This document shows, one piece after another, positions 10,777 through 42,548 of a stretch of 50,367 bases of DNA (within the stretch, counting starts at the first letter, position 1; every line of letters begins with the position of its first letter). The notes under the pieces were generated by a model that saw only the letters and a program-made list of their open reading frames with translations, was not told the origin of the DNA and made no database searches. Origin of the DNA: a virus; IMG/VR virus record IMGVR_UViG_3300005100_000006, positions 1 through 50,367 of that record. The stretch is one strand, 5' to 3'. A program made the translations under genes and the position numbers.

Positions 10777-11154
10777 ATGCCAGGTTCATTAGTAGAATTT
10801 GCAATCAATGGCCGCGCCTTTAAGTGCGCAGCCGATGCAGACGGTAACACCGACATTGGTGGCAAGGAAAACGAATTTCAGGCCAACGGTGACGGCGTGA
10901 CAGGTCGATTTATTCAACTGACAAAGGGCTGGAAATTTTCAGGCATTAACTTTGCTATTGATGAAGACAACGAAGATCAAGAATTTTTGCAAAACATTGC
11001 GGACGCTGGAAAGTTTGTTCCAATGAAGGCAATTTATTCTGACGGCACAGTCAGAGCGGGCAAGGGCAACATCACGGGACCTATTGAAGTAAGCTCAATG
11101 AATGGAACCGCACCGCTAACGCTTGAAGGCCCTGGGAAATTTCAGAGGCAGTAA
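10777..11154 (+). CDS. Tail tube protein, Mu gpM-like
   Basis: This 125-residue protein directly follows the sheath gene with GGAGG upstream of the ATG. It has the beta-rich composition and features of Mu-type tubes: an early FAINGRAFKCAADADGNTDI, a central KGWKFSGINFAIDEDNEDQE and a late GNITGPIEVSSMNGTAPLTL. Hexamers stack to form the inner tube that is driven through the outer membrane on sheath contraction. A strong terminator lies after it, where reverse-strand genes converge. Confidence 0.85.
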   Translation: MPGSLVEFAINGRAFKCAADADGNTDIGGKENEFQANGDGVTGRFIQLTKGWKFSGINFAIDEDNEDQEFLQNIADAGKFVPMKAIYSDGTVRAGKGNITGPIEVSSMNGTAPLTLEGPGKFQRQ

Positions 11155-11162
11155 GCAGACAC

Positions 11163-11192
11163 AAAAAACCCGCCTAGATTGGCGGGTTTTTT
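11163..11192. terminator. Bidirectional terminator
   Basis: AAAAAACCCGCC and GGCGGGTTTTTT form a 12-base stem around TAGATT. A- and U-runs on both sides let it end the tail-tube transcript and the convergent reverse cluster. Confidence 0.9.
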
Positions 11193-11195
11193 GTT

Positions 11196-11384
11196 TTATT
11201 TTATTAAGCAACTGGCTATCATATCGGCATCTTCAAACACGCCAACAAAATCACTGAAAACAAGAGTTGGACCACCAACAAAGTCGCATCCTTTTATTGA
11301 CACCTTTTTCACCACGTAAACTTCACCGTTAGATCGGCTCTTCACTCGACCTTTCATTAGTAGCTTTGCCTTTTTGTTTTTCAT
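11196..11384 (-). CDS. Small hypothetical protein
   Basis: Last gene of a five-gene reverse-strand cluster. The 62-residue product has a very basic N-terminus (MKNKKAKLLMKGRVKSRSNG) followed by KKVSIKGCDFVGGPTLVFSD, which reads like a small beta barrel. GGAAG precedes the ATG, and the ATG overlaps the preceding gene's stop. No family recognised. It ends beside the bidirectional terminator. Confidence 0.65.
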   Translation of the reverse strand: MKNKKAKLLMKGRVKSRSNGEVYVVKKVSIKGCDFVGGPTLVFSDFVGVFEDADMIASCLIK

Positions 11385-11572
11385 CTTCCACTTTCCTGTT
11401 TTAACCTTTCATAAAGCCCCGCCAAGCCTTCTCGAATCTCTTTCGTGATTTGGCGAGCATTTATTTTTTCGTTAACGATAGCCGGATCGCTGGCGCACAC
11501 TTCGCAAAGCCCTAAATAATCGACTTGCGCGGGCTTCCAGCAATCGCGGCACTTGTTTTTTACTCTTGGCAT
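11381..11572 (-). CDS. Small zinc-ribbon-like protein
   Basis: This 63-residue protein carries two CxxC pairs, C8-R-D-C11 and C23-E-V-C26, separated by 11 residues, a pattern that fits one zinc ribbon. A charged helix follows (TKEIREGLAGLYERLKQE). It overlaps its upstream neighbour by 13 bases and its downstream neighbour by 4. Such tiny zinc proteins in phages often bind nucleic acid or a host protein; the target is unknown. Confidence 0.65.
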   Translation of the reverse strand: MPRVKNKCRDCWKPAQVDYLGLCEVCASDPAIVNEKINARQITKEIREGLAGLYERLKQESGR

Positions 11573-11754
11573 GGCTTACGCTTTAAAACGAAGCACGGGC
11601 GCTTTGGCTTGCTCTCAATCGCCCAAATGTGCGCCACAAAGTCTTCATAGGTATTTTGTTCAATCGGATCGCCGCAAGTGGTAAAGCCCGTTTCCCATTG
11701 GTCGATCAGGCTTTCTTTGTTGGCGTTAATCCAGTCGGTGTAGTTGTTAACCAT
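11560..11754 (-). CDS. Small hypothetical protein
   Basis: A 64-residue acidic-then-basic protein that starts MVNNYTDWINANKESLIDQW and ends FVLKRKPCQE. I chose the ATG at 11754 because GGGGAAGC stands just upstream; a longer frame from 11787 has no ribosome site. It overlaps both neighbours in the reverse cluster. The tryptophan-rich helix (YEDFVAHIWAIE) is notable, but I recognise no family. Confidence 0.6.
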   Translation of the reverse strand: MVNNYTDWINANKESLIDQWETGFTTCGDPIEQNTYEDFVAHIWAIESKPKRPCFVLKRKPCQE

Positions 11755-11932
11755 CAAGCTTCCCCGCCTCTTTGCTGCAGTGTTCAAAACGGCATTCCGC
11801 CCAATGGCGTTGCTTGCTAGTGCACGGACTGTTAGCCGCGTTATTCCAATAAACCGCAGCCATTGGAAAGTCTTTCATTTGTTCAGCTTGCGCCGCTTTT
11901 GCCGTGTTTTTTTGGTAGTTTGCTGTTTGCAT
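11747..11932 (-). CDS. ANR-family regulator-like protein
   Basis: This 61-residue protein has the pattern of ANR (AraC negative regulator) proteins: AAQAEQMKDFPMAAVYWNNA followed by WAECRFEHC. Known ANR proteins (for example Aar of enteroaggregative E. coli) bind AraC-type activators and damp virulence regulons. AAGGAAAC precedes the ATG at 11932. Its place beside a NinH-like DNA-binding protein suggests a moron that alters host gene expression, which is inference from the family pattern. Confidence 0.6.
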   Translation of the reverse strand: MQTANYQKNTAKAAQAEQMKDFPMAAVYWNNAANSPCTSKQRHWAECRFEHCSKEAGKLDG

Positions 11933-11933
11933 G

Positions 11934-12152
11934 TTAGTTTCCTTTCTTATGGTGACCAGACCGGCGATCGAATACGAATGGCGCAAATTTTTCGCCATCT
12001 TTAACAAGAATGACATTGCTGCCATCGCCATTGATGTAACGGCGAAGCGTGCCGCGATTGAGGCCGATCTCTTTTGCGGCCTGTGTGATGTTCCCGCGGT
12101 GTTTAATCATTAGTTGCTCAAGGTCTGCAACTTCAATCATTTTTGTTTGCAT
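11934..12152 (-). CDS. NinH/Fis-like DNA-binding protein
   Basis: First gene of the reverse cluster, 72 residues. Residues about 10-42 (EQLMIKHRGNITQAAKEIGL, then NRGTLRRYING) form a Fis-type helix-turn-helix with the same layout as lambda NinH. AAGGAAA lies upstream of the ATG. A possible weak reverse promoter (TTGATT, 17 bases, TAAGCT) lies at about 12185-12208. It could regulate its own cluster or host genes. Confidence 0.65.
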   Translation of the reverse strand: MQTKMIEVADLEQLMIKHRGNITQAAKEIGLNRGTLRRYINGDGSNVILVKDGEKFAPFVFDRRSGHHKKGN

Positions 12153-12214
12153 GATTTTCCTTATTGGTTTATTTGGTTCAAGCTTAGCCGCCTAATCGGG
12201 TAAAATCAAGCCGT

Positions 12215-12243
12215 TTGCGATAAAATTGCGGGACGGCTATAAT
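12215..12243 (+). promoter_or_regulatory. Sigma-70 promoter for tail chaperone/tape measure genes
   Basis: TTGCGA (12215-12220), a 17-base spacer and a perfect TATAAT (12238-12243). It restarts forward transcription after the reverse cluster. Confidence 0.75.
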
Positions 12244-12314
12244 TAACGCGCCCGTCGGTCTGTCCTGTACCTTTAGCCATTTTGGTGGCGGGCACTAACA
12301 CAGGACCCAATCCC

Positions 12315-12728
12315 ATGACTAAAAAACAAGTAATGCCAATCGAGCAGGCAGAAACCGAACTAATCGAACTATTTAACGCAATGAGCATCGACACAGATGT
12401 TGATTCAATGCTTGAAGACGACCGCAAAGACTTTGAAAGCAAATTGCGCACACTGGCGCGACCTATCGCCAACGGTCAAGCAATCATTGACGGTGAAAGC
12501 TATGTGCTAACGCTTAAAAAAGCACTAGGCGACGAGAAGACGATCACCATTAGCGAGCCAACGGGCAACGCATGGGCGCAAATGGACAAAGCCGGAAAGA
12601 ACCAGGAAATGAAAAAGCTAATGATGTTCGTTAGTGGTTTTACTGGTGTTCCTTATGCTCAGATCGGCAAGCTGGTAAACTCAGACGTAAAAATACTAAA
12701 AGAGTTCGCTTTGCTTTTTTTGGTCTAA
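12315..12728 (+). CDS. Tail assembly chaperone, short form
   Basis: This 137-residue protein starts behind CAGGA at nine bases (a GTG frame at 12282 is spurious). It is acidic at the N-terminus (EQAETELIELFNAMSIDTDV) and occupies the Mu gp41 / lambda G position right before the tape measure gene. These chaperones coat the tape measure protein during tail assembly. Near its 3' end (12716-12722) lies T TTT TTG, the classical -1 slippery heptamer, two codons before the TAA stop. Ribosomes that slip make the long form ending at 12973. Confidence 0.8.
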   Translation: MTKKQVMPIEQAETELIELFNAMSIDTDVDSMLEDDRKDFESKLRTLARPIANGQAIIDGESYVLTLKKALGDEKTITISEPTGNAWAQMDKAGKNQEMKKLMMFVSGFTGVPYAQIGKLVNSDVKILKEFALLFLV

Positions 12729-12973
12729 CGACGATTCGAATTGTTAATGGTGGGGAGCTTAAACGGCTCCCTAATCGTTTGTATTTCGGTAAAGACGTCG
12801 ATCCTAATACTCGTGCTAACATATACACAACCATGTACGCACAAGTTGCCAAAGATTTTGCCAACGCACCAAGGCCGAAAGAAATAACGGTTGAGGAGCT
12901 GCGATTTTATTATGATTTACTTGTGCCAGAACTGATCCAATACCAAAAGGATAAAATGAGAAATGGCCAGTAA
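12315..12973 (+). CDS. Tail assembly chaperone, long form made by -1 frameshift
   Basis: After slippage on T TTT TTG (12716-12722), reading continues in the -1 frame as FGLTTIRIVNGGELKRLPNR and on to the stop at 12971-12973, giving about 219 residues (135 in the first frame, the shifted codon, then 83). The downstream frame has no ATG with a ribosome site (only TTG at 12779), which supports expression by fusion. A hairpin GGGAGC/GCTCCC (12753-12771) lies about 30 bases downstream and might help. This mirrors lambda G/GT and Mu 41/42. The stop overlaps the tape measure start. Confidence 0.8.
12716..12722 (+). promoter_or_regulatory. -1 ribosomal frameshift slippery site
   Basis: T TTT TTG in the zero frame (codons TTT 12717-12719, TTG 12720-12722) lies inside a run of seven T. 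Both tRNAs can re-pair after slipping one base back. The zero-frame stop follows one codon later. Confidence 0.85.
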
Positions 12974-14546
12974 ATACAGCATATCGACAGTATTTAAAGC
13001 TGTCGACAAAGTGACAAAGCCCGTCCGCAAAATGACGGGCTCCATTCAAAACCTTACCGAAAAGACCGAAGCCGGACTGCGAAAGATTGACGCAGCAACG
13101 AGCAAGGTCACAGACGGTATATTCTCACTTGGTGCCACTGGCGCAAAAAGTGCAGCAACTATCACAGCCGCTTTAGTGGTTGGCGCTGGTGCAATCAACC
13201 ATATGAAAGTTGAGCAAGACAACATGACGCGAGCCATGGGCGCAAGCGTTAAAACTGTCGAAGCCGTCACAAGTGGAATAAAAGGTATTGGCTTAAATGC
13301 GGAGAATGTCACAGATTTATACGAAGAAATGAACAACAAGCTGGGCGAATCAGCGGGTATTGAAGAAATAACCGCCGTCACCGAATCGCTTGGTATTCTT
13401 GGGTTGCAGTTCAGAGACATTCAAAAGCTATCACCGGACGAGCAATTTAAAGCGATAACAAACGCAGCGCTTCAAATGGAAGACGCCACACAAGCAGCCG
13501 CCGCCGCCGATATGCTAATGGGTGGTGAGGCTAACAAAGTGATCTCCGCTTTGCGTATGCAGGGCAAGACCATGGACGACATTATTGGTAATTATCAAAT
13601 GTTGTCATTCCGCACCGACCAATCAAGGAAAGGCGCGGAAGATATGGCCAAGGCTCAACAAACCATGATGCAAATCACCGGATCGCTAACTCAAGAAATC
13701 AGCGGTTTGCTTGGTAAAGCGCTTGCGCCGCTTATCGTTAAATTCAACGAGTTCATGATCAACAATAAAGAGCTCATAAACCAAAACCTAGAAAAGCTTT
13801 TTGCATCGATTGGAACGGCGATCGGTGATATCACGCCGCACCTGGAAAGCGCGTTTAAGTGGATCGGAAGCCTTGGCGAGCACTTTAACGAGTTTGTTGA
13901 GTGGGCGAAGTGGGTTGGCAAGCTGGCACTGGTTATTGGTTCTTTAATGATTGGATTGAAGATATTTATCGGCATCATGACAGCGGTTAACCTTGTTATG
14001 GCAGCCAATCCAATCAGCTTGATGATTATTGCGGTTATCGCTCTTGGCGCTGCCTTTGCCTTTGCAGTTAAAAAGATTTATGACAATTGGGACGGGATAA
14101 CCGAGTATTTCGGCGGCATTTGGGAAAACATAAAAACAAACTTCAATATTGGCGTTGAGTTCATTAAATCCGCTTTCGACTGGAACCCGATCGACATGGT
14201 AAAGGCTAAGTGGGATGGTCTTAAAACGTATTTTGCCGATCTGTTTAGCGGTATCATCAATATGTATGATTCGACCATTGGCGCGATAAGTGGCGGCATT
14301 GATAACCTGACTTCAAGCGTTAGTGGATTCCTTGGCTTTAGTTCGGAAGATGAATCACCACAGCTAACCACGGAAGAAACCGCAAGCCCGCAGCAGCGTG
14401 CACAGGTAGCAATGAGCGAGACGATTACCCGAACCATACAAGATAGCCGCGAAACGGTTGATATCAACGTCACGGGGCAAAATGGGGCGCAAGTATCAAG
14501 CCCTATGCAGTCGCCAAGACTGAATTTGATTAATACAGCAAACTAG
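12963..14546 (+). CDS. Tape measure protein
   Basis: The 527-residue protein sets tail length and is ejected into the host. The N-terminal 250 residues are helical and rich in alanine, lysine and glutamate. Strongly hydrophobic segments span residues about 318-369 (KLALVIGSLMIGLKIFIGIM; NPISLMIIAVIALGAAFAFA), as in many tape measures. The C-terminus (TRTIQDSRETVDINVTGQNG) is the usual beta-rich end of Mu-type proteins. The gene follows the chaperone pair with an 11-base overlap. It is short for a myovirus, so a short tail is expected. Confidence 0.88.
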   Translation: MASKYSISTVFKAVDKVTKPVRKMTGSIQNLTEKTEAGLRKIDAATSKVTDGIFSLGATGAKSAATITAALVVGAGAINHMKVEQDNMTRAMGASVKTVEAVTSGIKGIGLNAENVTDLYEEMNNKLGESAGIEEITAVTESLGILGLQFRDIQKLSPDEQFKAITNAALQMEDATQAAAAADMLMGGEANKVISALRMQGKTMDDIIGNYQMLSFRTDQSRKGAEDMAKAQQTMMQITGSLTQEISGLLGKALAPLIVKFNEFMINNKELINQNLEKLFASIGTAIGDITPHLESAFKWIGSLGEHFNEFVEWAKWVGKLALVIGSLMIGLKIFIGIMTAVNLVMAANPISLMIIAVIALGAAFAFAVKKIYDNWDGITEYFGGIWENIKTNFNIGVEFIKSAFDWNPIDMVKAKWDGLKTYFADLFSGIINMYDSTIGAISGGIDNLTSSVSGFLGFSSEDESPQLTTEETASPQQRAQVAMSETITRTIQDSRETVDINVTGQNGAQVSSPMQSPRLNLINTAN

Positions 14547-14563
14547 AAAACAACCGACCGAAG

Positions 14564-14605
14564 AAAAATAGCGGCTTGACTTTAACCAGTTAAGCCGCTA
14601 TTTTT
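14564..14605 (+). promoter_or_regulatory. Combined terminator and promoter/operator (moron element A)
   Basis: AAAAATAGCGGCTT (14564-14577) pairs with AAGCCGCTATTTTT (14592-14605), a terminator for the tape measure transcript. The loop and 3' arm also read as a promoter: TTGACT (14576-14581), 17 bases, TATTTT (14599-14604), with TTAAC-CA-GTTAA between. The element shares CGGCTTGACTTTAACC with the one at 18324 and resembles that at 38228. Confidence 0.65.
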
Positions 14606-14635
14606 TATTCACCAATACAAACAGGACCTTTAAAA

Positions 14636-14806
14636 ATGAAAAAAAAACTTACTAGCCTTTTTCTACTCTCATTCGTTTCTCTTTTGCCTCTTCCTTTTAT
14701 TTTTGATTATTCATTTATTGCGGCTGGCGCTTATATTTGTTTCGTTCTTTTGCTTGCAAGCGGGCTTTGGTCTGCAATGAATACTGGAGCCAAAAATGAA
14801 AAATAA
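14636..14806 (+). CDS. Small membrane protein, two hydrophobic segments
   Basis: This 56-residue protein starts MKKKLTSLFLLSFVSLLPLP and has a second hydrophobic stretch, AGAYICFVLLLASGLW. ACAGGAC stands nine bases before the ATG. It is the first gene of moron cassette A, immediately downstream of a promoter-like element. Two membrane segments in so short a protein fit a small holin-like or host-membrane protein, but no family is recognised. Its 3' end overlaps the next gene by 11 bases. Confidence 0.6.
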   Translation: MKKKLTSLFLLSFVSLLPLPFIFDYSFIAAGAYICFVLLLASGLWSAMNTGAKNEK

Positions 14807-14894
14807 ACTCATTTACTGGGGGTTTATCGGATGCCTTAGCCTGGTGCTTTGGTTCGTCGTCATTAATGTGGCTAATAGAAATGGGTGGTTTTGA
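14796..14894 (+). CDS. Single-span membrane peptide
   Basis: A 32-residue peptide, MKNKLIYWGFIGCLSLVLWF and VVINVANRNGWF, with one transmembrane segment. It starts inside the preceding gene and its TGA shares one base with the next ATG (TGATG). That coupling on both sides is the main reason to believe it is translated. Confidence 0.5.
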   Translation: MKNKLIYWGFIGCLSLVLWFVVINVANRNGWF

Positions 14895-15178
14895 TGATCG
14901 ATTTGATACTGGCAAGCCCCATAATACCAACACCAATAGAGGCAAGGATTTTTGTCGCTATCTGTTGCGCGTACTTAGTTTTTGATTACAGGTCTGATGT
15001 CGAAAGGTCTATAAAATTAAAAAGAAAAAAAATAACAGAAAGGCAAATATTTGATGGTCACAACGAAGTATCTTCAATGATTCACGCGGCCGTAAACACA
15101 ACCCAATTTTGTTGCTTTGAGTTCAGCAAGCAAATGGAAATAATCAGGTTTATAAACAACCGTTATTTGAGCCTTTAA
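14894..15178 (+). CDS. Membrane-anchored small protein
   Basis: This 94-residue protein begins MIDLILASPIIPTPIEARIF followed by VAICCAYLVF, one membrane segment, then a basic stretch (KLKRKKITERQ) and a soluble helical end. ATG 14894 is coupled to the previous stop. The basic residues just after the span suggest the C-terminus faces the cytoplasm. It closes cassette A, and a promoter-like element follows. Confidence 0.6.
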   Translation: MIDLILASPIIPTPIEARIFVAICCAYLVFDYRSDVERSIKLKRKKITERQIFDGHNEVSSMIHAAVNTTQFCCFEFSKQMEIIRFINNRYLSL

Positions 15179-15184
15179 CCCCCA

Positions 15185-15193
15185 TGCTACAAT
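15185..15193 (+). promoter_or_regulatory. Extended -10 promoter
   Basis: TGC-TACAAT in the context CATGCTACAATAA, identical over 13 bases to the site at 18881-18893. A TTGAGC lies 15 bases upstream. It stands ahead of the circularisation/baseplate gene. Confidence 0.55.
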
Positions 15194-15223
15194 AACAACA
15201 TTCAAATTATCGAGGGCTAACCA

Positions 15224-16474
15224 ATGCCATGGCAAGACCGACTAACAGATTGCACATACACCGCACCTAGCGGCGCAGTCTTTACGCTTGAATACGAGAA
15301 CGTCAAGCGATCCCAAAAGAAGAAAACCACAACTTTCGAGTTCGTATCTAGTGATGATGTTTACGTGCAGGACAACGGCGTGGGCGCAAAAGTTTTCCCG
15401 CTTGTGGTTTATTTCTCAGGCGAAGACCACGACACAAAGGCCAATGAGTTTTTTGAAGCACTGGCAGAGCGTGGAGCTGGCGAGCTACAGCATCCTATCT
15501 ATGGCGTGCGAACCGTTAACGTCACAGACAAGGTTGAACAAGTAGACAACTTAAAAAGCGGAGCCAATCAAAGCGCCTTTACCATTACTTTTATTGAGAC
15601 CATCACCGACCTTTACCCGTCCGCGCAGGAAAACGCAGACGAGGCAAACAAAAAAGCTAGTGATGATTTCGACGCAGCAAAAGCCGAAGAGTTTGAGAAA
15701 GGCGTCGAGCTTGAAACCGTAGCCGAAGAACAATCATTGATTGAACAGATTAATGATAAAGTTGGATCGGTCGAAGAGGCAATTAAACCGCTCGTTGATG
15801 GCACAGCAGACGCGGAGCGATTCGCCAACGACTTGACCAACTCGATCACCAACGGCATTGACGTTCTTATTGGCACGCCTACAACACTAGCCTTTCAGTG
15901 CACGCAGCTTGTAAAGACTGGCGCGAATGCGTTTTCGTTAATCGGTGACAAGCTAGAAGCCTATGGCGATCTGCTTAGTGATATTGTTTCACCAGACAAA
16001 ACAACCACAACGCCAACCTACAACAACGTAGGCGCGAACACTGTACAAACACAAGATCTGTTTGCAGCGTCCGAAGTGTCCGCCGTTGCTTTGAGTATTG
16101 CAAACGAAGACTTTGAGACGCGAGAAGAAGCACTGAGCGCGGCGGAGTCGCTGCAAGAGTCGTTTTTTGACTATTCCGAATGGAAGGACCGAAACACCGC
16201 AGCGGTGGGAATTGAAGACGAGGGCCAAGGTTATGAGGCTTTACTTGCGCAAGTCACGCTTGCTGTATCTAGCACTATCAACAGCGCTATTGGGTTGCAG
16301 CGTATGCGCAACGTGGTACTTGATAGAGATATGCTAGTTCTAGACTTTGCTTATCAGTATTTTGGCACAACTGAAAGCGCAGCGGTTGAGAAAGTGATCT
16401 TAATGAACAACCTCGACAACGAGGAAATTTGGACGATTCCAAAGGGGCGCTTGATGCGTTATTTGGTGGATTAG
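15224..16474 (+). CDS. DNA circularisation/baseplate protein, Mu gpN-like
   Basis: This 416-residue protein has the DNA_circ_N type N-terminus: PWQDRLTDCTYTAPSGAVFT, and TTTFEFVSSDDVYVQDNGVG. In Mu gpN is a tail/baseplate component, and related proteins were named for DNA circularisation. The middle is helical (EENADEANKKASDDFDAAKA-like region, about residues 135-185). GAGGG precedes the ATG. It lies after the tape measure gene, as Mu N does, and the next gene begins immediately at its stop. Confidence 0.85.
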   Translation: MPWQDRLTDCTYTAPSGAVFTLEYENVKRSQKKKTTTFEFVSSDDVYVQDNGVGAKVFPLVVYFSGEDHDTKANEFFEALAERGAGELQHPIYGVRTVNVTDKVEQVDNLKSGANQSAFTITFIETITDLYPSAQENADEANKKASDDFDAAKAEEFEKGVELETVAEEQSLIEQINDKVGSVEEAIKPLVDGTADAERFANDLTNSITNGIDVLIGTPTTLAFQCTQLVKTGANAFSLIGDKLEAYGDLLSDIVSPDKTTTTPTYNNVGANTVQTQDLFAASEVSAVALSIANEDFETREEALSAAESLQESFFDYSEWKDRNTAAVGIEDEGQGYEALLAQVTLAVSSTINSAIGLQRMRNVVLDRDMLVLDFAYQYFGTTESAAVEKVILMNNLDNEEIWTIPKGRLMRYLVD

Positions 16475-17686
16475 ATGACAACCCACACCATAAAGCCTGG
16501 CGAAAGTTACGAAGACATATCACGCCAGCAATACGGCACAGAAGAAGGCGCCGACACTCTCAAGAAGTCGAACCCGAGCGCAGGTGACACGCCCGCAGCG
16601 GGTAGCACTTTGTTTGTGCCAAAGACCAAAACCAAAACCAAAATTAACCCAACAAGTGACGTTGTAACGTTGATAATTGGCGAAACCGAGTTTAAAAACT
16701 TCATTGAGATAACTTTAACCCAGCGATTTGATTCCTTCGATACGTGCGACATTATTGCGCCGTTTGAACCAGATAACAGTGAGTTTAGAAAGCTGTTCAA
16801 GCCGTTTAGCTATCAGGATATAGAGGTCTTTATTGGTGACGAGCTGGTTTTTAGCGGTACCCAGATGGGCGTCAATCCGTTTGTTACGCCAGAAAGCAAA
16901 ACCGTTACGCTGTCTGCATACTCTAAATGCGCGGTCATTAATGATTCTTGCGTTCCTATTTCCGCTTATCCGGTAGAGGTGCGAGGCTTTAAGCTCGATC
17001 GCATTGCGAAGGGCATCACGCAAACTTTTCCGTTTGACGTTGTGGTAAGCGCGGACGTTGGCGACTCGTTCAACGTCGCAACTATAAAGCCCAGCAAGAA
17101 AATAGCCCCTTACCTGTTGGAGCTGGCCAAACAGCGCGACATTGTTTTAACTAACGATCTAGACGGTAACCTGTTGCTAACCAAGGCGACCGAATCCGAA
17201 AGCGTGGCGCACATCAAGGGCGATCAACCGCCTATGCTTGGCATTGTTCCGCAATTCAACGAGCAAGAGTATTACAGCGATTACACGGCGATTCTGCCCG
17301 TGATAATCAGGCAAGATCCAACCAGTTACACCGCAAAGAATCGTAAGCTTGCGAACTCGTTACGTGTCGATAACTACATGGCTACCGATTCTTACAACGG
17401 CGATGAGAAAACAGTGGCAGAAAGCCGCAGGGCGCGAGGCATTGCCAATTCAGTGGCTTATACGTGTGCACTGTCTACGCTACGCGATCCGCAAGGTGCG
17501 CTTTATACTGTGAATACGTTTGTGAACATCGAAGCGCCGGAGGCTATGATCTACCGTGATACGAAAATGTTTATCAAAGGCGTTACAATGTCACTTACAC
17601 CAAGCGCCCGCGCGTGCTCGCTTGAACTGACACTGCCAGAGGCTTACAACGGAAAGGACGTGGAGGTGTTACCGTGGGAAGAATAA
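16475..17686 (+). CDS. Baseplate hub protein with LysM domain, Mu gpP-like
   Basis: This 403-residue protein begins with a LysM domain (residues 2-47: HTIKPGESYEDISRQQYGTE to GSTLFVPK), which may bind peptidoglycan during infection. The remainder resembles the 43-kDa Mu gpP hub (TLTQRFDSFDTCDIIAPFEP; PYLLELAKQRDIVLTNDLDG; STLRDPQGALYTVNTFVNIE). Hub trimers carry the spike and connect it to the tube. The N-terminal LysM fused to the hub is less common and stands out. The gene overlaps the spike gene by 13 bases. Confidence 0.85.
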   Translation: MTTHTIKPGESYEDISRQQYGTEEGADTLKKSNPSAGDTPAAGSTLFVPKTKTKTKINPTSDVVTLIIGETEFKNFIEITLTQRFDSFDTCDIIAPFEPDNSEFRKLFKPFSYQDIEVFIGDELVFSGTQMGVNPFVTPESKTVTLSAYSKCAVINDSCVPISAYPVEVRGFKLDRIAKGITQTFPFDVVVSADVGDSFNVATIKPSKKIAPYLLELAKQRDIVLTNDLDGNLLLTKATESESVAHIKGDQPPMLGIVPQFNEQEYYSDYTAILPVIIRQDPTSYTAKNRKLANSLRVDNYMATDSYNGDEKTVAESRRARGIANSVAYTCALSTLRDPQGALYTVNTFVNIEAPEAMIYRDTKMFIKGVTMSLTPSARACSLELTLPEAYNGKDVEVLPWEE

Positions 17687-18309
17687 CCCGAGCGCTTAGC
17701 GTCATTGGCGAAAGAATCAAAGCCCTAGCCGACGCGGGCGATATAAACGAAATGGAACATTTGCAGCCACTAGGCGACGACTCGAAGCCATTGCCGCAGG
17801 ATGATGGATGGAGCGACCGCACAAACCAAAGCGGGGGCGATGTTTATTTTGGTGCGTTTGACTATGAGAACAAGATTGCAGAGCCAGGGGAAAAGCGGAC
17901 GTATGCCCGAGACGCCGACGGCAATCCAGTTAGCCACGTTTATCAGAAGAAAGACGGCACTATCATTATTGCCAATGATAGCTACAGCAAGACGATAAAC
18001 CCCGACGGCTCTTTTGTTGAGACTAACGGCACTTACTCAAAAAACGTTAGCGCCGATGGCTCGTTTACTGAGACGAATGGGGCGTATACCAAGACGGTGG
18101 CCACAAGTGGCGAGGTCAATATCAACGGGTTTGTTATCGGACCAGATGGATCGGCGTCTTCACCGGTTAGCGTTACAGCTCCAACAATCAGCGGCACAAG
18201 TTCGCTAGTGGTGTCAGGCAAAGAGCAGAAAGACCACACGCACACAGTCGGAACGTATAAGGACGCGGAAGGCAGACCGATTACGGGCGACAGTGGTACG
18301 CAGAGTTAA
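17674..18309 (+). CDS. Baseplate spike, Mu gp45-like
   Basis: The 211-residue spike starts with GTG inside the hub gene (no ATG fits). The N-terminal half is the OB-like base; residues 101-146 repeat SYSKTINPDGSFVETNG, TYSKNVSADGSFTETNG and AYTKTVATSG, 17-residue steps of a triple-stranded beta helix. Near the tip lies H188-T-H190, the HxH motif that binds iron in Mu gp45 and related membrane-piercing spikes. It is placed between hub and wedge genes as in Mu. A terminator/promoter element follows the stop. Confidence 0.85.
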   Translation: MGRITRALSVIGERIKALADAGDINEMEHLQPLGDDSKPLPQDDGWSDRTNQSGGDVYFGAFDYENKIAEPGEKRTYARDADGNPVSHVYQKKDGTIIIANDSYSKTINPDGSFVETNGTYSKNVSADGSFTETNGAYTKTVATSGEVNINGFVIGPDGSASSPVSVTAPTISGTSSLVVSGKEQKDHTHTVGTYKDAEGRPITGDSGTQS

Positions 18310-18323
18310 TTAAATAAAAAACG

Positions 18324-18354
18324 GCTTGACTTTAACCGGTCAAGCTTTTATCGT
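18324..18354 (+). promoter_or_regulatory. Promoter/operator (moron element B)
   Basis: TTGACT (18326-18331), 17 bases, TATCGT (18349-18354). GCTTGAC (18324-18330) and GTCAAGC (18339-18345) form an inverted repeat around TTTAACCG. The first 16 bases, CGGCTTGACTTTAACC, match element A at 14573 exactly. AACAGGAC follows the -35 by 45 bases (44 in A). Confidence 0.65.
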
Positions 18355-18386
18355 TTAGGCTCATTTAACAAACAGGACAAATGAAA

Positions 18387-18581
18387 ATGAAAGACTCAAT
18401 GTTTGACTGTAGTAACCTCGAGTACGGCATTAAATACGACATCACCACCCACAGCGGTCAAGTTTATCGCGGTTGGTATCTTTACAGCCAAGAGTGCGGC
18501 TATTTTTCCAAGAAAGAAGGAAGCCAACTAGAAGGATTTTTATATTCTGAATCTGTAGCATCGGTGAAGGAGAGTGATTGA
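18387..18581 (+). CDS. Small hypothetical protein
   Basis: A 64-residue protein beginning MKDSMFDCSNLEYGIKYDIT with a beta-rich body (HSGQVYRGWYLYSQECGYFS). Two ATGs are possible, 18381 and 18387; I prefer 18387 because ACAGGA then stands nine bases upstream, as at most genes of this phage. It heads moron cassette B and shares one base with the next start. No family recognised. Confidence 0.55.
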   Translation: MKDSMFDCSNLEYGIKYDITTHSGQVYRGWYLYSQECGYFSKKEGSQLEGFLYSESVASVKESD

Positions 18582-18739
18582 TGTTCAAAAAATACAAAGC
18601 ACATGTTTTTTGTGAAGTATGCGAATTTCACTTTTCTATTCACGCGGGCAATCCAAGAGTAAATAAAACAGTAAAAACGCATTGCCCACATTGCAAAGAG
18701 TTGCGCCCTGCATACATATACAAAGCAGAGGAGAAGTGA
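18581..18739 (+). CDS. Small zinc-finger-like protein
   Basis: This 52-residue protein has C11-E-V-C14 and C35-P-H-C38 with intervening histidines, a plausible single zinc site, and many lysines (MFKKYKAHVF at the start, YKAEEK at the end). AAGGAG precedes the ATG, whose A is the last base of the upstream TGA. It could bind nucleic acid or a host protein; no family recognised. Confidence 0.55.
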   Translation: MFKKYKAHVFCEVCEFHFSIHAGNPRVNKTVKTHCPHCKELRPAYIYKAEEK

Positions 18740-18742
18740 TTG

Positions 18743-18850
18743 ATGAGTAAATTGGAAAATTTAAGCATTGGTTGGTTTTTGGTTGCATTTTATTCCGTTG
18801 GAATATTGATTGCGTTAGCTAGTCTTTGGTTTGATGGATTCTTTAATTAA
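18743..18850 (+). CDS. Single-span membrane peptide
   Basis: A 35-residue peptide with a central membrane segment (GWFLVAFYSVGILIALASLW) and short polar ends. GGAG lies upstream of the ATG, within the end of the preceding gene. It closes cassette B. Like the peptides in cassette A it may act on the host envelope, but nothing in the sequence says how. Confidence 0.45.
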   Translation: MSKLENLSIGWFLVAFYSVGILIALASLWFDGFFN

Positions 18851-18882
18851 AACTCGCGCCCAATTCATTTAACTCAATAACA

Positions 18883-18891
18883 TGCTACAAT
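18883..18891 (+). promoter_or_regulatory. Extended -10 promoter
   Basis: TGC-TACAAT inside CATGCTACAATAA, the same 13 bases as at 15183. It precedes a terminator (18933-18956) and the gp46-like gene, so it may allow conditional restart of the baseplate operon after cassette B. Confidence 0.5.
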
Positions 18892-18932
18892 AAAAACTCA
18901 TTGTAGATTTAAGCTCCTGTAATGACGAACTA

Positions 18933-18956
18933 GCCCGCCTAACCGCGGGCTTTTTT
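18933..18956 (+). terminator. Rho-independent terminator
   Basis: GCCCGC-CTAACC-GCGGGC followed by TTTTTT. It lies between cassette B and the gp46-like gene, so baseplate genes downstream need read-through or a promoter beyond it; TATACT at 18964-18969 is a candidate -10. Confidence 0.85.
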
Positions 18957-18996
18957 GTTGGTGTATACTTACGCAAACACATTAAAAGGTTACCCC

Positions 18997-19428
18997 ATGC
19001 CAAAACAAACACCGACACAAGAAGGCGACGTTTTACTTTTCCAGACGCTAGACGATGGCGACCTGTCTATCACCGAAGGCATTGTGGAAATGACCGGCGG
19101 ACTAGAGACAGCGGTTTATCTTTCGCTATTCTCGCCAGAGGACTGGTTTTGCAATGAAGCGGCACAAACGCCAGAGCATCGACTCACATCAAGAACCAAC
19201 GACTTTATAAACAATAAGCCGCAATCCTCGAAAAACTATCAGCTATTAGTGCAAGCGGTCGAAGCCGATCTGAAATGGCTAACCAAAGACAAGCTGGCCA
19301 AATCGGTTAGCGCGTCCGTTTCTTCCGACGGCTTAAATCGTGTTATGATTGGGGTAGTAATTGAGCAGGATTCCAGCTCAACTAATCTTAATATACCAGT
19401 TGAGTGGGGAACCCGAGCAAATGGCTAG
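18997..19428 (+). CDS. Baseplate wedge protein, Mu gp46-like
   Basis: This 143-residue protein resembles the GP46 family: an early EGDVLLFQTLDDGDLSITEG, GGLETAVYLSLFS, and a later QAVEADLKWLTKDKLAKSV. GP46-type proteins, like T4 gp25, join sheath and wedge. The ATG at 18997 is preceded by AAGG; the frame from 18955 begins in the terminator and is rejected. The gene overlaps the gp47-like gene by 8 bases, the normal Mu order. Confidence 0.8.
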   Translation: MPKQTPTQEGDVLLFQTLDDGDLSITEGIVEMTGGLETAVYLSLFSPEDWFCNEAAQTPEHRLTSRTNDFINNKPQSSKNYQLLVQAVEADLKWLTKDKLAKSVSASVSSDGLNRVMIGVVIEQDSSSTNLNIPVEWGTRANG

Positions 19429-20614
19429 AACAATCAAAGAGATCTCAAACTCAATCATTTCTCAGCTTGAGTCTACGCTAAACCAAAAAATACCACTGCT
19501 TAAAAAGTCCTTTATGCGAGCGCACAGCCAAGCAACGGCAAGCGTGTTTGTGATGCTTGAGCATTACGCCGTATTTATGAATAAACAGTGGTTTGTTTCT
19601 GTGTGTTCAGATCAAGACATCAAGGTTTTAGGCGTAACAGTTAACCCGCTTGGCTTTTGGGGCGACCTGATTGGTGTATCACCACAAAAGCAAGGGCAAC
19701 GCGCAGAGCACACCGTTAGCGTGACCGTTGAGCAACTAGGCGGCACGTTGAACGCTGGTACGCAGTTGCAGTCTTCCCAAAACGGCTTTACTTACATCAC
19801 CACGCAAGCGTATTTGCTCGATACCAACCCGATCACAATTAGCGTAAAAGCGGCAGACGATCCAACCTTTAACAATGGTATAGGCGCAACCGGTAACCTA
19901 GCCAATGGCGCCGAGTTGTCTTTTGTTAACCCGCTTGCGCAAGTTGGCAAAATCGCCACCGTAACCAGTCAATTGGTAACAGGTGCCGATCCAGAAACAA
20001 GCCAAAGCTATCGAAAGCGAGTGCAAAAAGCTTTTCGTAGACGCAAGCAAGGCGGGGCTATGGTTGACTATCAATCATGGGGCGAAGAGGTGCCAGGCAT
20101 ATCGAACGTTTACCCTTACACTGGCGCACCCATGGAAGTGGATAATTTTGTTGAAGCCACGCCAGAAAGCAGCGGAAGCGCTGACGGTATCCCAACGCCT
20201 ACGCAGCTAGAGCAGGTAAAGCAGTCTATCGAATACGACAGCAACGGCAAAGCGTCACGCCGTCCGGTTGGCGTGTTTGTGAATGTTTACCCAATCAGGC
20301 GCACCGGATTTAATGTGTTTGTTTCTGGCCTTATAGCAAGCAATGAGGCGCAAGTTAAAACCCAAATAGAAAACGGGGTGCGTGATTTCTTCCTTGATGC
20401 TGAGCCGTTTATTACTGGCTTATCGGTACCACCGCGCAAAGACTCAATTTCTAAGATAGCGGTTGAAGGTGTGATCAATGATATTGTTCGAGCCAATAAC
20501 GCCAGCTTTTTGGGCGCGTCTATCTTCAAGTATGCGGACAATTCGCCCGTAGAGCTCGCTTATCAGCTTGAAAAAGGCGAGAAAGCCAAAGCGGTGACGG
20601 TGGAGTTTGTTTAG
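19421..20614 (+). CDS. Baseplate J-like protein, Mu gp47-like
   Basis: The 397-residue protein has the Baseplate_J pattern: GTLNAGTQLQSSQNGFTYIT, then ADPETSQSYRKRVQKAFRRR, KQGGAMVDYQSWGEEVPGIS and VYPYTG. It forms the wedge arms that hold the tail fibres. Start ATG 19421 lies inside the gp46-like gene; the longer frame from 19361 lacks a ribosome site. The C-terminus (ADNSPVELAYQLEKGEKAKA) ends one base before the gp48-like ATG. Confidence 0.88.
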   Translation: MARTIKEISNSIISQLESTLNQKIPLLKKSFMRAHSQATASVFVMLEHYAVFMNKQWFVSVCSDQDIKVLGVTVNPLGFWGDLIGVSPQKQGQRAEHTVSVTVEQLGGTLNAGTQLQSSQNGFTYITTQAYLLDTNPITISVKAADDPTFNNGIGATGNLANGAELSFVNPLAQVGKIATVTSQLVTGADPETSQSYRKRVQKAFRRRKQGGAMVDYQSWGEEVPGISNVYPYTGAPMEVDNFVEATPESSGSADGIPTPTQLEQVKQSIEYDSNGKASRRPVGVFVNVYPIRRTGFNVFVSGLIASNEAQVKTQIENGVRDFFLDAEPFITGLSVPPRKDSISKIAVEGVINDIVRANNASFLGASIFKYADNSPVELAYQLEKGEKAKAVTVEFV

Positions 20615-38227: not shown

Positions 38228-38254
38228 TTGACATTAACAGGTTAATGTTATAGC
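38228..38254 (+). promoter_or_regulatory. XRE gene promoter with operator (element C)
   Basis: TTGACA (38228-38233) overlaps CATTAAC-AG-GTTAATG (38232-38247), a perfect inverted repeat, followed by extended TGT-TATAGC (38246-38254). Spacer is short (15), offset by the extended -10. The repeat covers the promoter, as expected of an autoregulated repressor. Moron elements A and B contain related sequence. Confidence 0.7.
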
Positions 38255-38288
38255 TTTTACCAAAATTAAACTCATTGTTAGGTGAATT

Positions 38289-38489
38289 ATGAACATTGCA
38301 AAATCAATCAAACACGGTCTAGTCAATAAAGACATTGCAGCGCAAGACCTTGCAAAGTCTTTAGGCAAGACAAAGCAAACTGTTAGCCAGTGGATGAACA
38401 AAAAAGCCGAGCCGCGTATGGCTGACGTGGAAAAAATGGCTAACATCTTTGGCGTGAAGGTGAGCGAATTTATTGGTTGGGGCGAATAA
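38289..38489 (+). CDS. Cro/XRE-type transcriptional regulator
   Basis: This 66-residue protein is a single HTH_3 domain: NKDIAAQDLAKSLGKTKQTV (helices 2-3 with the recognition helix KTKQTVSQWMNKK), then PRMADVEKMANIFGVKVSEF. It is the only obvious small DNA-binding repressor in the window. Standing between divergent promoters with a palindrome over its own -35, it probably binds the TTGAC-TTAAC sites and switches early transcription. No CI-like partner with a peptidase domain is present. Confidence 0.88.
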   Translation: MNIAKSIKHGLVNKDIAAQDLAKSLGKTKQTVSQWMNKKAEPRMADVEKMANIFGVKVSEFIGWGE

Positions 38490-42017: not shown

Positions 42018-42212
42018 ATGAACTGGATAGACGTTAATGAAAAGCTGCCAGAAAAAAACCAATATTGCATCGTATACATGAAAAGACGAGGATTTTCACC
42101 GACTAACGTTATTGTTACGCGTTACAGCAGATACGGCTTTGAGGTTGAAAGCGTCACGCACTGGATGCCTTTACCGGATGCGCCAAATAACCACCAGCAA
42201 ACAGAGAGATAG
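42018..42212 (+). CDS. DUF551-family protein
   Basis: The 64-residue protein has the DUF551 signature: an opening MNWIDVNEKLPEKNQYCIVY and a closing VESVTHWMPLPDAP. DUF551 proteins are common in phages and prophages of gammaproteobacteria, and their function is unknown. ATG 42018 lies six bases after ACAGGA; the longer frame from 41949 lies in the previous gene. The end of the gene is part of a 30-base direct repeat. Confidence 0.8.
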   Translation: MNWIDVNEKLPEKNQYCIVYMKRRGFSPTNVIVTRYSRYGFEVESVTHWMPLPDAPNNHQQTER

Positions 42213-42218
42213 ATTATG
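42189..42218 (+). repeat. 30-base direct repeat, copy 1
   Basis: Bases 42189-42218 are identical to 42519-42548. Each copy covers the last codons (HQQTER), the AGAGAGA ribosome site and the ATG of the next gene. Confidence 0.95.
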
Positions 42219-42542
42219 AAAGTAAAAAAGGGTCAAATAGTTGCCTTTTCTGAAGGCGAGTATTCCGATTATACTGTAGAGGCCTTATGTGTAGTTGATA
42301 ATCCTTTTGATTTAGAAGAAATGAAAAACAAATGGATGGATGAGTGCTGTGAGGAATTAACCACCAATATTTACAAGCACAGACCAGAGCGGAAACTTAA
42401 GAGTGGTAAGCCTTCATTTTTAGCTTGGCTTTCAATGAAAATGCTAGTAACAGACATTGATTATATAGAGGTTCACACGGGCTCTTATGGTGAGGTTGAT
42501 GTTACTTTCGATTTAGTCAACCACCAGCAAACAGAGAGATAG
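42216..42542 (+). CDS. Hypothetical protein flanked by direct repeats
   Basis: This 108-residue protein (MKVKKGQIVAFSEGEYSDYT; DEC-CEELTTNIYKHRPER) ends in NHQQTER, the same residues as the previous gene, because a 30-base repeat spans both gene ends. GAGAGAT precedes the ATG. No family recognised. The repeats suggest the gene is a cassette that came in, or can leave, by recombination. Confidence 0.65.
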   Translation: MKVKKGQIVAFSEGEYSDYTVEALCVVDNPFDLEEMKNKWMDECCEELTTNIYKHRPERKLKSGKPSFLAWLSMKMLVTDIDYIEVHTGSYGEVDVTFDLVNHQQTER

Positions 42543-42548
42543 ATTATG
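42519..42548 (+). repeat. 30-base direct repeat, copy 2
   Basis: Identical to 42189-42218, separated by 330 bases start to start. Confidence 0.95.

Follow-up and report, generated by a model that had tools for sequence, protein, structure and literature searches.

Background

The promoter early stem-loops (PeSLs; Arbiol 2010) of T4-like myoviruses are, as described in a paper that cites the work on them (PMC4503421), composite elements made of a promoter and a stem-loop that occur repeatedly in intergenic DNA. The early −35 box of T4-like phages is described as GTTTAC-like in PMC1524935, and this paper also quotes the definition of lambdoid morons that is followed here. We analyzed a viral DNA of 50,367 nt (IMG/VR record IMGVR_UViG_3300005100_000006, positions 1-50,367; the whole stretch is called the window below) in which a promoter-like element, TTGAYW with a 17-bp spacer and TAnnnT, recurs at the start of small-gene cassettes inserted among the tail genes and also precedes the gene of an XRE-type regulator.

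On sequence grounds these cassettes would work like morons with a composite promoter-terminator start, and the nearest named kind is the PeSL of T4-like phages. With the PeSLs so described they share a repeated promoter plus stem-loop, placed beside exchangeable small open reading frames (ORFs) and conserved while its neighbours shuffle. They differ in that the phage is not T4-like (the genome is about 50 kb, the baseplate gene order is Mu-like and the close relatives identified are Vibrio phages resembling it), in that −35 and −10 overlap the stem arms, in the TTGAYW-based promoter motif (a comparison by description only) and in the existence of a form without a strong hairpin at divergent borders. 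As in lambdoid morons, promoter-like and terminator-like sequences flank the ORFs (at the borders of the gp45 cargo), the base composition deviates (in the tape-measure and gp45 cargo, but not in the tube cargo) and the flanking genes are adjacent in a relative, the phage CKB-S1. Unlike those morons, the cargo here comprises several genes and occupies several fixed borders, all with the same promoter class, and we noticed no integrase gene in these Vibrio phages, one of which, MAG7, has been reported to be lytic (PMC10179652). The likeness to the Cro/C1-type operator regulons of temperate phages lies in a small XRE-type regulator whose own promoter is overlaid by a palindrome; unlike in such regulons, this palindrome does not recur at the cargo sites, and phages devoid of this regulator still have the cargo promoters. 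In the open-access literature that we searched, no description of such elements was found for this Vibrio phage group, and the main text of the MAG7 paper (PMC10179652) contains neither the word promoter nor the word terminator.

Copies of the element and their promoter-like architecture

A preliminary description of this DNA had reported the motif TTGAC-W-TTAAC-NN-GT-YAA at three sites, and this was borne out by an exact match at each of 14576 (TTGACTTTAACCAGTTAA), 18326 (TTGACTTTAACCGGTCAA) and 38228 (TTGACATTAACAGGTTAA). We could also reproduce the 16 identical bases that it had noticed (CGGCTTGACTTTAACC, at 14572 and 18322) and the constant distance to AACAGGAC, which amounts to 44 and 45 bases (14620-14627 and 18371-18378, plus strand). 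The copy at 14576 starts 30 positions past the end of the tape-measure gene (14546), and that at 18326 starts 17 positions past the end of a gp45-like baseplate gene (18309). A fourth copy, which the earlier description had overlooked, is on the minus strand at 12209, ahead of a reverse cassette (11196-12152) that adjoins the tail-tube gene.

The degenerate pattern TTGAYWTTAV-N13-TA (that is, TTGA[CT][AT]TTA[ACG]N13TA), chosen post hoc after the window sites and some relatives had been inspected, has four matches in the window, which are exactly these four sites, against a mean of 0.115 and a maximum of 1 in shuffled sequences. Similarly, the exact string TTGACWTTAAC occurs three times, against a shuffle mean of 0.075 and a maximum of 2. 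The 16-bp repeat was discarded as stand-alone evidence, because shuffles of 50 kb contain on average 0.7, and up to five, such direct-repeat pairs of 16-mers. A special operator role of AACAGGAC was rejected as well: this sequence has 16 exact copies, 13 of them directly before an ATG, and represents the common ribosome-binding and translation-start context of the phage. A fixed unit of promoter, short leader and ribosome-binding sequence would be expected to give the constant 44-45-base distance.

Sigma70-type promoters carry a TTGACA-like −35 and a TATAAT-like −10 about 17 bp apart, and the best conserved positions of the −10 are TA...T. All four sites display this arrangement with a spacer of exactly 17 bp: TTGACT (14576-14581) and TATTTT (14599-14604) at the tape-measure border (element 14576-14604, plus strand), TTGACT (18326-18331) and TATCGT (18349-18354) at the gp45 border (18326-18354, plus strand), TTGATT (12209-12204) and TAAGCT (12186-12181) at the tail-tube border (12181-12209, minus strand), and TTGACA (38228-38233) and TAGCTT (38251-38256) before the XRE gene (38228-38256, plus strand). 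The elements at 14576 and 18326 are also listed by a generic promoter scan.

The window stands as a separate virus record, to which 27 records of related Vibrio phages show about 75% DNA identity in the tail region, and we compared it with 14 Vibrio phages that were read nearly whole (15 genomes with the window). H188 (China), MAG7 (Greece) and the partial 1.005.O bear the handles L036, L037 and L038, respectively. The pattern TTGAYWTTAV-N13-TA yields two to four matches in each of the 15 genomes, always at gene starts or promoter positions; in the relatives they precede the cargo behind the tape-measure, gp45-like or tail-tube gene, the XRE gene and a few early genes. Although selected post hoc, the pattern held in phages that were added later and predicted one base outside itself, since the sixth base of the −10 was T in 51/51 matches (29/29 distinct ones). 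When the spacing was varied from 12 to 22 bp, TA....T was found at 17 bp in 29 of the 73 distinct TTGAYWTTAV sites, and in only 0-4 at each other spacing. From these sequence features, we consider it likely that all sites represent a single class of sigma70-type phage promoter, in which TTA directly follows TTGAYW.

Hairpins overlapping the promoter-like element

An intrinsic terminator consists of a stable hairpin directly followed by a T-rich tract. The preliminary description had missed that the sites at 14576 and 18326 are contained in hairpins that look like terminators. At the tape-measure border (14566-14603), the stem 14566-14581/14588-14603 encloses the loop TTAACC, is flanked by A-rich sequence upstream and T-rich sequence downstream, and is terminator-like in both directions; strong hairpin and T-tract together cover 14566-14610, and folding gave a stem of 16-22 pairs with a dG of −27.8 (65 nt) and a z of −11.2 against shuffles. 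The gp45 hairpin (18324-18345; GCTTGACT-TTAACC-GGTCAAGC, then TTTTAT) is a weaker terminator-like structure with a stem of eight pairs and a z of −2.5, and extends over 18324-18350 when the T-rich sequence is counted in. The −35 is in the left arm of both, and the −10 is in the right arm at 14576 and begins three bases beyond it at 18326. The transcript start predicted for these two copies is located past the hairpin and ahead of the ribosome-binding sequence.

Hairpins at the co-directional tape-measure and gp45 sites were stronger than those of shuffled sequences (z of −8.6, −2.5, −4.9 and −4.0), and the divergent sites (tube, 12209, and XRE, 38228) had no strong hairpin (z from +0.5 to −2.0). 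Clear hairpins are restricted to the two borders where transcription comes from upstream. Between the window and the relatives the stem is shifted by one base in register with the 17-bp promoter spacing unchanged, and the tape-measure stems differ in several pairs and yet both pair fully, a compensation that escapes notice unless the stems are folded separately, each in the register proper to it. No structured RNA of Rfam matched positions 11000-20000.

Conservation of the linker and variability of the cargo

The 14 relatives have a common order of structural genes, with different small genes at the same borders, which lie behind the tail tube (where the small genes are on the reverse strand), the tape measure and gp45. 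The linker behind gp45 is about 82 nt long in all, and across 13 phages the average identity of its first 70 nt was 96%. The gp45 gene reached 77% and gene J 86%, and the first 500 nt of the cargo were 38% identical; in 78/78 pairs, linker identity exceeded that of the gp45 gene. Five relatives have a paralogous element behind the tape measure, and another precedes the reverse cassette. H188 and MAG7 retain the gp45 element, and an additional copy is present behind the DNA-circulation gene in H188 and in the IMG/VR contig L011. Conservation of the motif ahead of moron cassettes, which the preliminary description had proposed as a test of its own claim, was observed in every close relative examined. 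Moreover, where relatives carry an unrelated tape-measure linker, the cargo, as judged by eye, mostly still opens with a hairpin of the terminator type and a sequence resembling a promoter, as in L027 (GGGGCTTCGGCCTC-TTTTTT, then TTGATC-17-TACAAT).

In the distant relative CKB-S1, which carries no cargo, the tape measure and the next gene are 0 bp apart, gp45 and gp46 17 bp and the tail tube and gp41 75 bp. Measured against this arrangement, the cassettes are therefore insertions that bring a promoter-like start of their own, and the structural genes behind them have a separate, likewise promoter-like restart. We rejected a wide distribution of the element on the basis of pattern searches: the exact degenerate pattern of the relatives' element had no match in 84,980 bacterial and archaeal genomes, in IMG/VR the degenerate pattern retrieved eight stretches, most of them on contigs already known as related, and the window-type pattern led to no further contig.

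Proposed mechanism and alternative explanations

We believe that a cassette with a combined promoter and terminator is the likely explanation of these observations. One promoter class would start transcription both of interchangeable cassettes of small cargo genes and of the early operon of XRE and primase. In the co-directional cassettes (tape measure, gp45-like), where promoter and hairpin overlap, the same stretch of about 40 bp would do two jobs: in its RNA form it would end the incoming late transcript, and in its DNA form it would launch transcription of the cargo, some 22-25 nt upstream of the first cargo start codon. The cassette would end with a terminator, with an extended −10 promoter that restarts the structural genes, or with both. 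Because the same promoter class serves the early operon, early expression of the cargo, uncoupled from the late genes, is probable and, because the linker is near-invariant while the cargo differs, it probably also provides homology for cargo swapping. Promoter activity, termination, early timing and the part played in recombination and cargo exchange are all inferred here from sequence. Whether a mobile "stop-and-start" cassette has evolved in a family of non-T4 Vibrio phages, with −35 and −10 laid over the arms of a terminator stem, unrelated accessory genes kept in the late operon under early control, matching restart promoters and a near-invariant sequence as homology for exchange, is a wider proposal to which we give an even chance.

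Several observations weigh against this explanation. The relatives are not phylogenetically independent, and the −10 hexamers (TATTTT, TATCGT, TAAGCT and TAGCTT) are weak, so that an activator is possibly needed. The co-directional copy of L011 has no strong hairpin, the gp45 hairpin of the window (z of −2.5) is barely stronger than that of the XRE site (z of −2.0), and the gp45 hairpins of the relatives are followed by a poor T-tract (TTATTGTGTTTG), so that termination there may be partial. Finally, a covariation count on an ungapped alignment gave no double changes, because the stem of the window is shifted by one register.

The preliminary description had suggested a shared promoter/operator through which the XRE protein, by binding all the sites, would co-control its own promoter and those of the cargo. 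Its promoter half stands, as a promoter class that links the XRE gene with the cargo of the late operon; control of the cargo by XRE is not supported, and we regard it as unlikely. The XRE promoter does belong to the same class, a perfect 18-bp palindrome (ACATTAAC-AG-GTTAATGT, 38231-38248) covers its −35 in the window, and the XRE spacer resembles the gp45 element of the same genome in the window (9/14 positions, against 3-5/14 shared with the XRE promoters of relatives) and in L016, L007 and L023 (9-10/14). However, the palindrome of the window is absent from the other sites, the XRE spacers of L008 and L028 differ from their gp45 elements (6-7/14) and the tube site is unlike the XRE site (2-5/14). 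Concerted evolution of the XRE and cargo sites, suggestive in four genomes and contradicted by two, was accordingly dismissed as proof of a common regulator. This XRE is missing from at least seven relatives in which the element is unchanged: no homologue was detected (tblastn, E<0.01) in L017, L019, L022, L024, L026 and L027, all read nearly whole, or in MAG7, and H188 and the partial 1.005.O have only a paralogue of about 30% identity. The identity of the gp45 element was 0.981 within XRE-carrying phages, 0.978 within those without it and 0.979 between the two groups. The regulator is thus not found wherever the operator would be conserved, and we rejected XRE as a necessary regulator; autoregulation by XRE in the window is plausible, judging from the palindrome.

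A different phage-encoded factor, such as the Fis/NinH-like helix-turn-helix (HTH) protein of the tube cassette, might be the common regulator of the promoter class. This protein is present in all 15 aligned genomes, those without XRE included, and its own gene lies behind a promoter of the class, but the elements have little in common apart from the requirements of a sigma70 promoter; the protein is a candidate, and such a regulatory role seems quite unlikely. We think it improbable, too, that the element is mainly a recombination linker, that is, a short homology at cassette ends with a minor transcriptional role. An identity of 96% with unrelated cargo behind it and copies at several gene borders would fit that idea, but a transcriptional function explains the high conservation equally well and the hairpin-less copies share mainly the promoter positions; in any case, recombination and transcriptional roles of the linker are compatible. 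There remains the view that the hairpins are simply intrinsic terminators of late transcripts and the promoter resemblance a by-product. The sites directly past stop codons and the strong hairpin with T-tract at 14566-14610 speak in its favour, but the tube, XRE and L011 sites, which have no strong hairpin, share the −35, the 17-bp spacer and the −10, the spacing stays fixed despite the shift in stem register and the T of the −10 is invariant, all of which makes this view highly improbable.

If the promoter-terminator cassette is correct, it yields a simple rule, based on sequence, for the placement and mode of carriage of optional genes in a common marine phage group, and it predicts early expression of the cargo despite its position among late genes. 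In the relatives the cargo includes methyltransferases, antirepressors and many genes of no known kind. With such a rule, the cargo genes could readily be listed for about 30 sequenced Vibrio phages and examined for roles in host takeover or anti-defence. The cassette would also extend beyond T4-like phages the PeSL idea that regulatory cassettes mediate module shuffling.

Cassette contents, right borders and neighbouring features

The tape-measure cargo (14636-15178, plus strand) has three small ORFs, 14636-14806, 14796 to about 14893, and 14894-15178. In the gp45 cargo (18381-18850, plus strand), an ORF at 18381-18581 is followed by one starting at 18581 and by a third, short and hydrophobic; the second (18581-18740) contains a CxxC...CxxC pattern of the zinc-ribbon type. 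The tested ORFs of these two cassettes gave no confident family match, and the first gp45 ORF gave none. Their GC content is 37%, against 46-52% in the flanking tail genes, and that of the tube cargo (46%) does not deviate from its neighbours. The reverse tube cargo (11196-12152, minus strand), behind the fourth promoter copy, includes the Fis/NinH-like HTH gene (11934-12152, minus strand; PF02954, 8e-8), whose product is conserved in 14/14 relatives and is a possible core regulator.

A strong bidirectional terminator (11161-11194) separates the tail-tube gene from the reverse cargo. On the other side, a promoter-like re-initiation site (GGCTATAATTAACG, 12235-12248, plus strand) precedes the gp41-like tail gene (ATG at about 12315), and a TATAAT/TATACT site is found at this position in 15/15 genomes. 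No clear terminator was seen at the right end of the window's tape-measure cargo; an extended −10 promoter-like sequence (CATGCTACAATAACA, 15183-15197, plus strand) lies there as a re-initiation site before the DNA-circulation gene (15224), and CATGCTACAATAAC precedes this gene in the window and in nine other phages. The right border of the gp45 cargo, before the gp46-like gene, carries a terminator (AGCCCGCCTAACCGCGGGCT-TTTTTG, 18932-18951, plus strand) and an extended −10 promoter-like sequence (TTGGTGTATACTTA, 18958-18971, plus strand), with GTGTATACTTA before the gp46-like gene in 15/15 genomes. The extended −10-like sites at right cargo borders (15183-15197, 18881-18893, 18958-18971 and 12235-12248; CATGCTACAATAA, TTGGTGTATACTTA, GGCTATAATTAACG) are conserved in relatives, and CATGCTACAATAA occurs twice in the window; from their sequence they are a candidate late-promoter class.

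In MAG7, the DNA-circulation gene is separated from the P-like tail gene by about 670 bases in which no gene is annotated (L037:29849-30518) and which end in a terminator-like hairpin, at a place where other phages have protein cargo or nothing. Elsewhere in the window, a directly repeated stretch (AACCACCAGCAAACAGAGAGATAGATTATG, about 30 bp, 42189-42218 and 42519-42548) forms a repeated gene-border linker that twice running spans the last codons of one small ORF (NHQQTER, stop) and the start codon of the next.

The XRE regulator itself (38289-38489, plus strand) is a protein of 66 aa with a Cro/C1-type HTH (PF01381, 1.9e-10), and beside its promoter a divergent early operon has the promoter-like sequence TTGACT-18-TATACT (38202-38173, minus strand). 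The second XRE paralogue, about 30% identical, is encoded in the tail-fibre region of some relatives (L007:27150-27347, L008:26144-26344, L036:48188-48385 on the minus strand, and L038:26810-27010), and its promoter, of the TTGACATTAAA type, belongs to the class described above.

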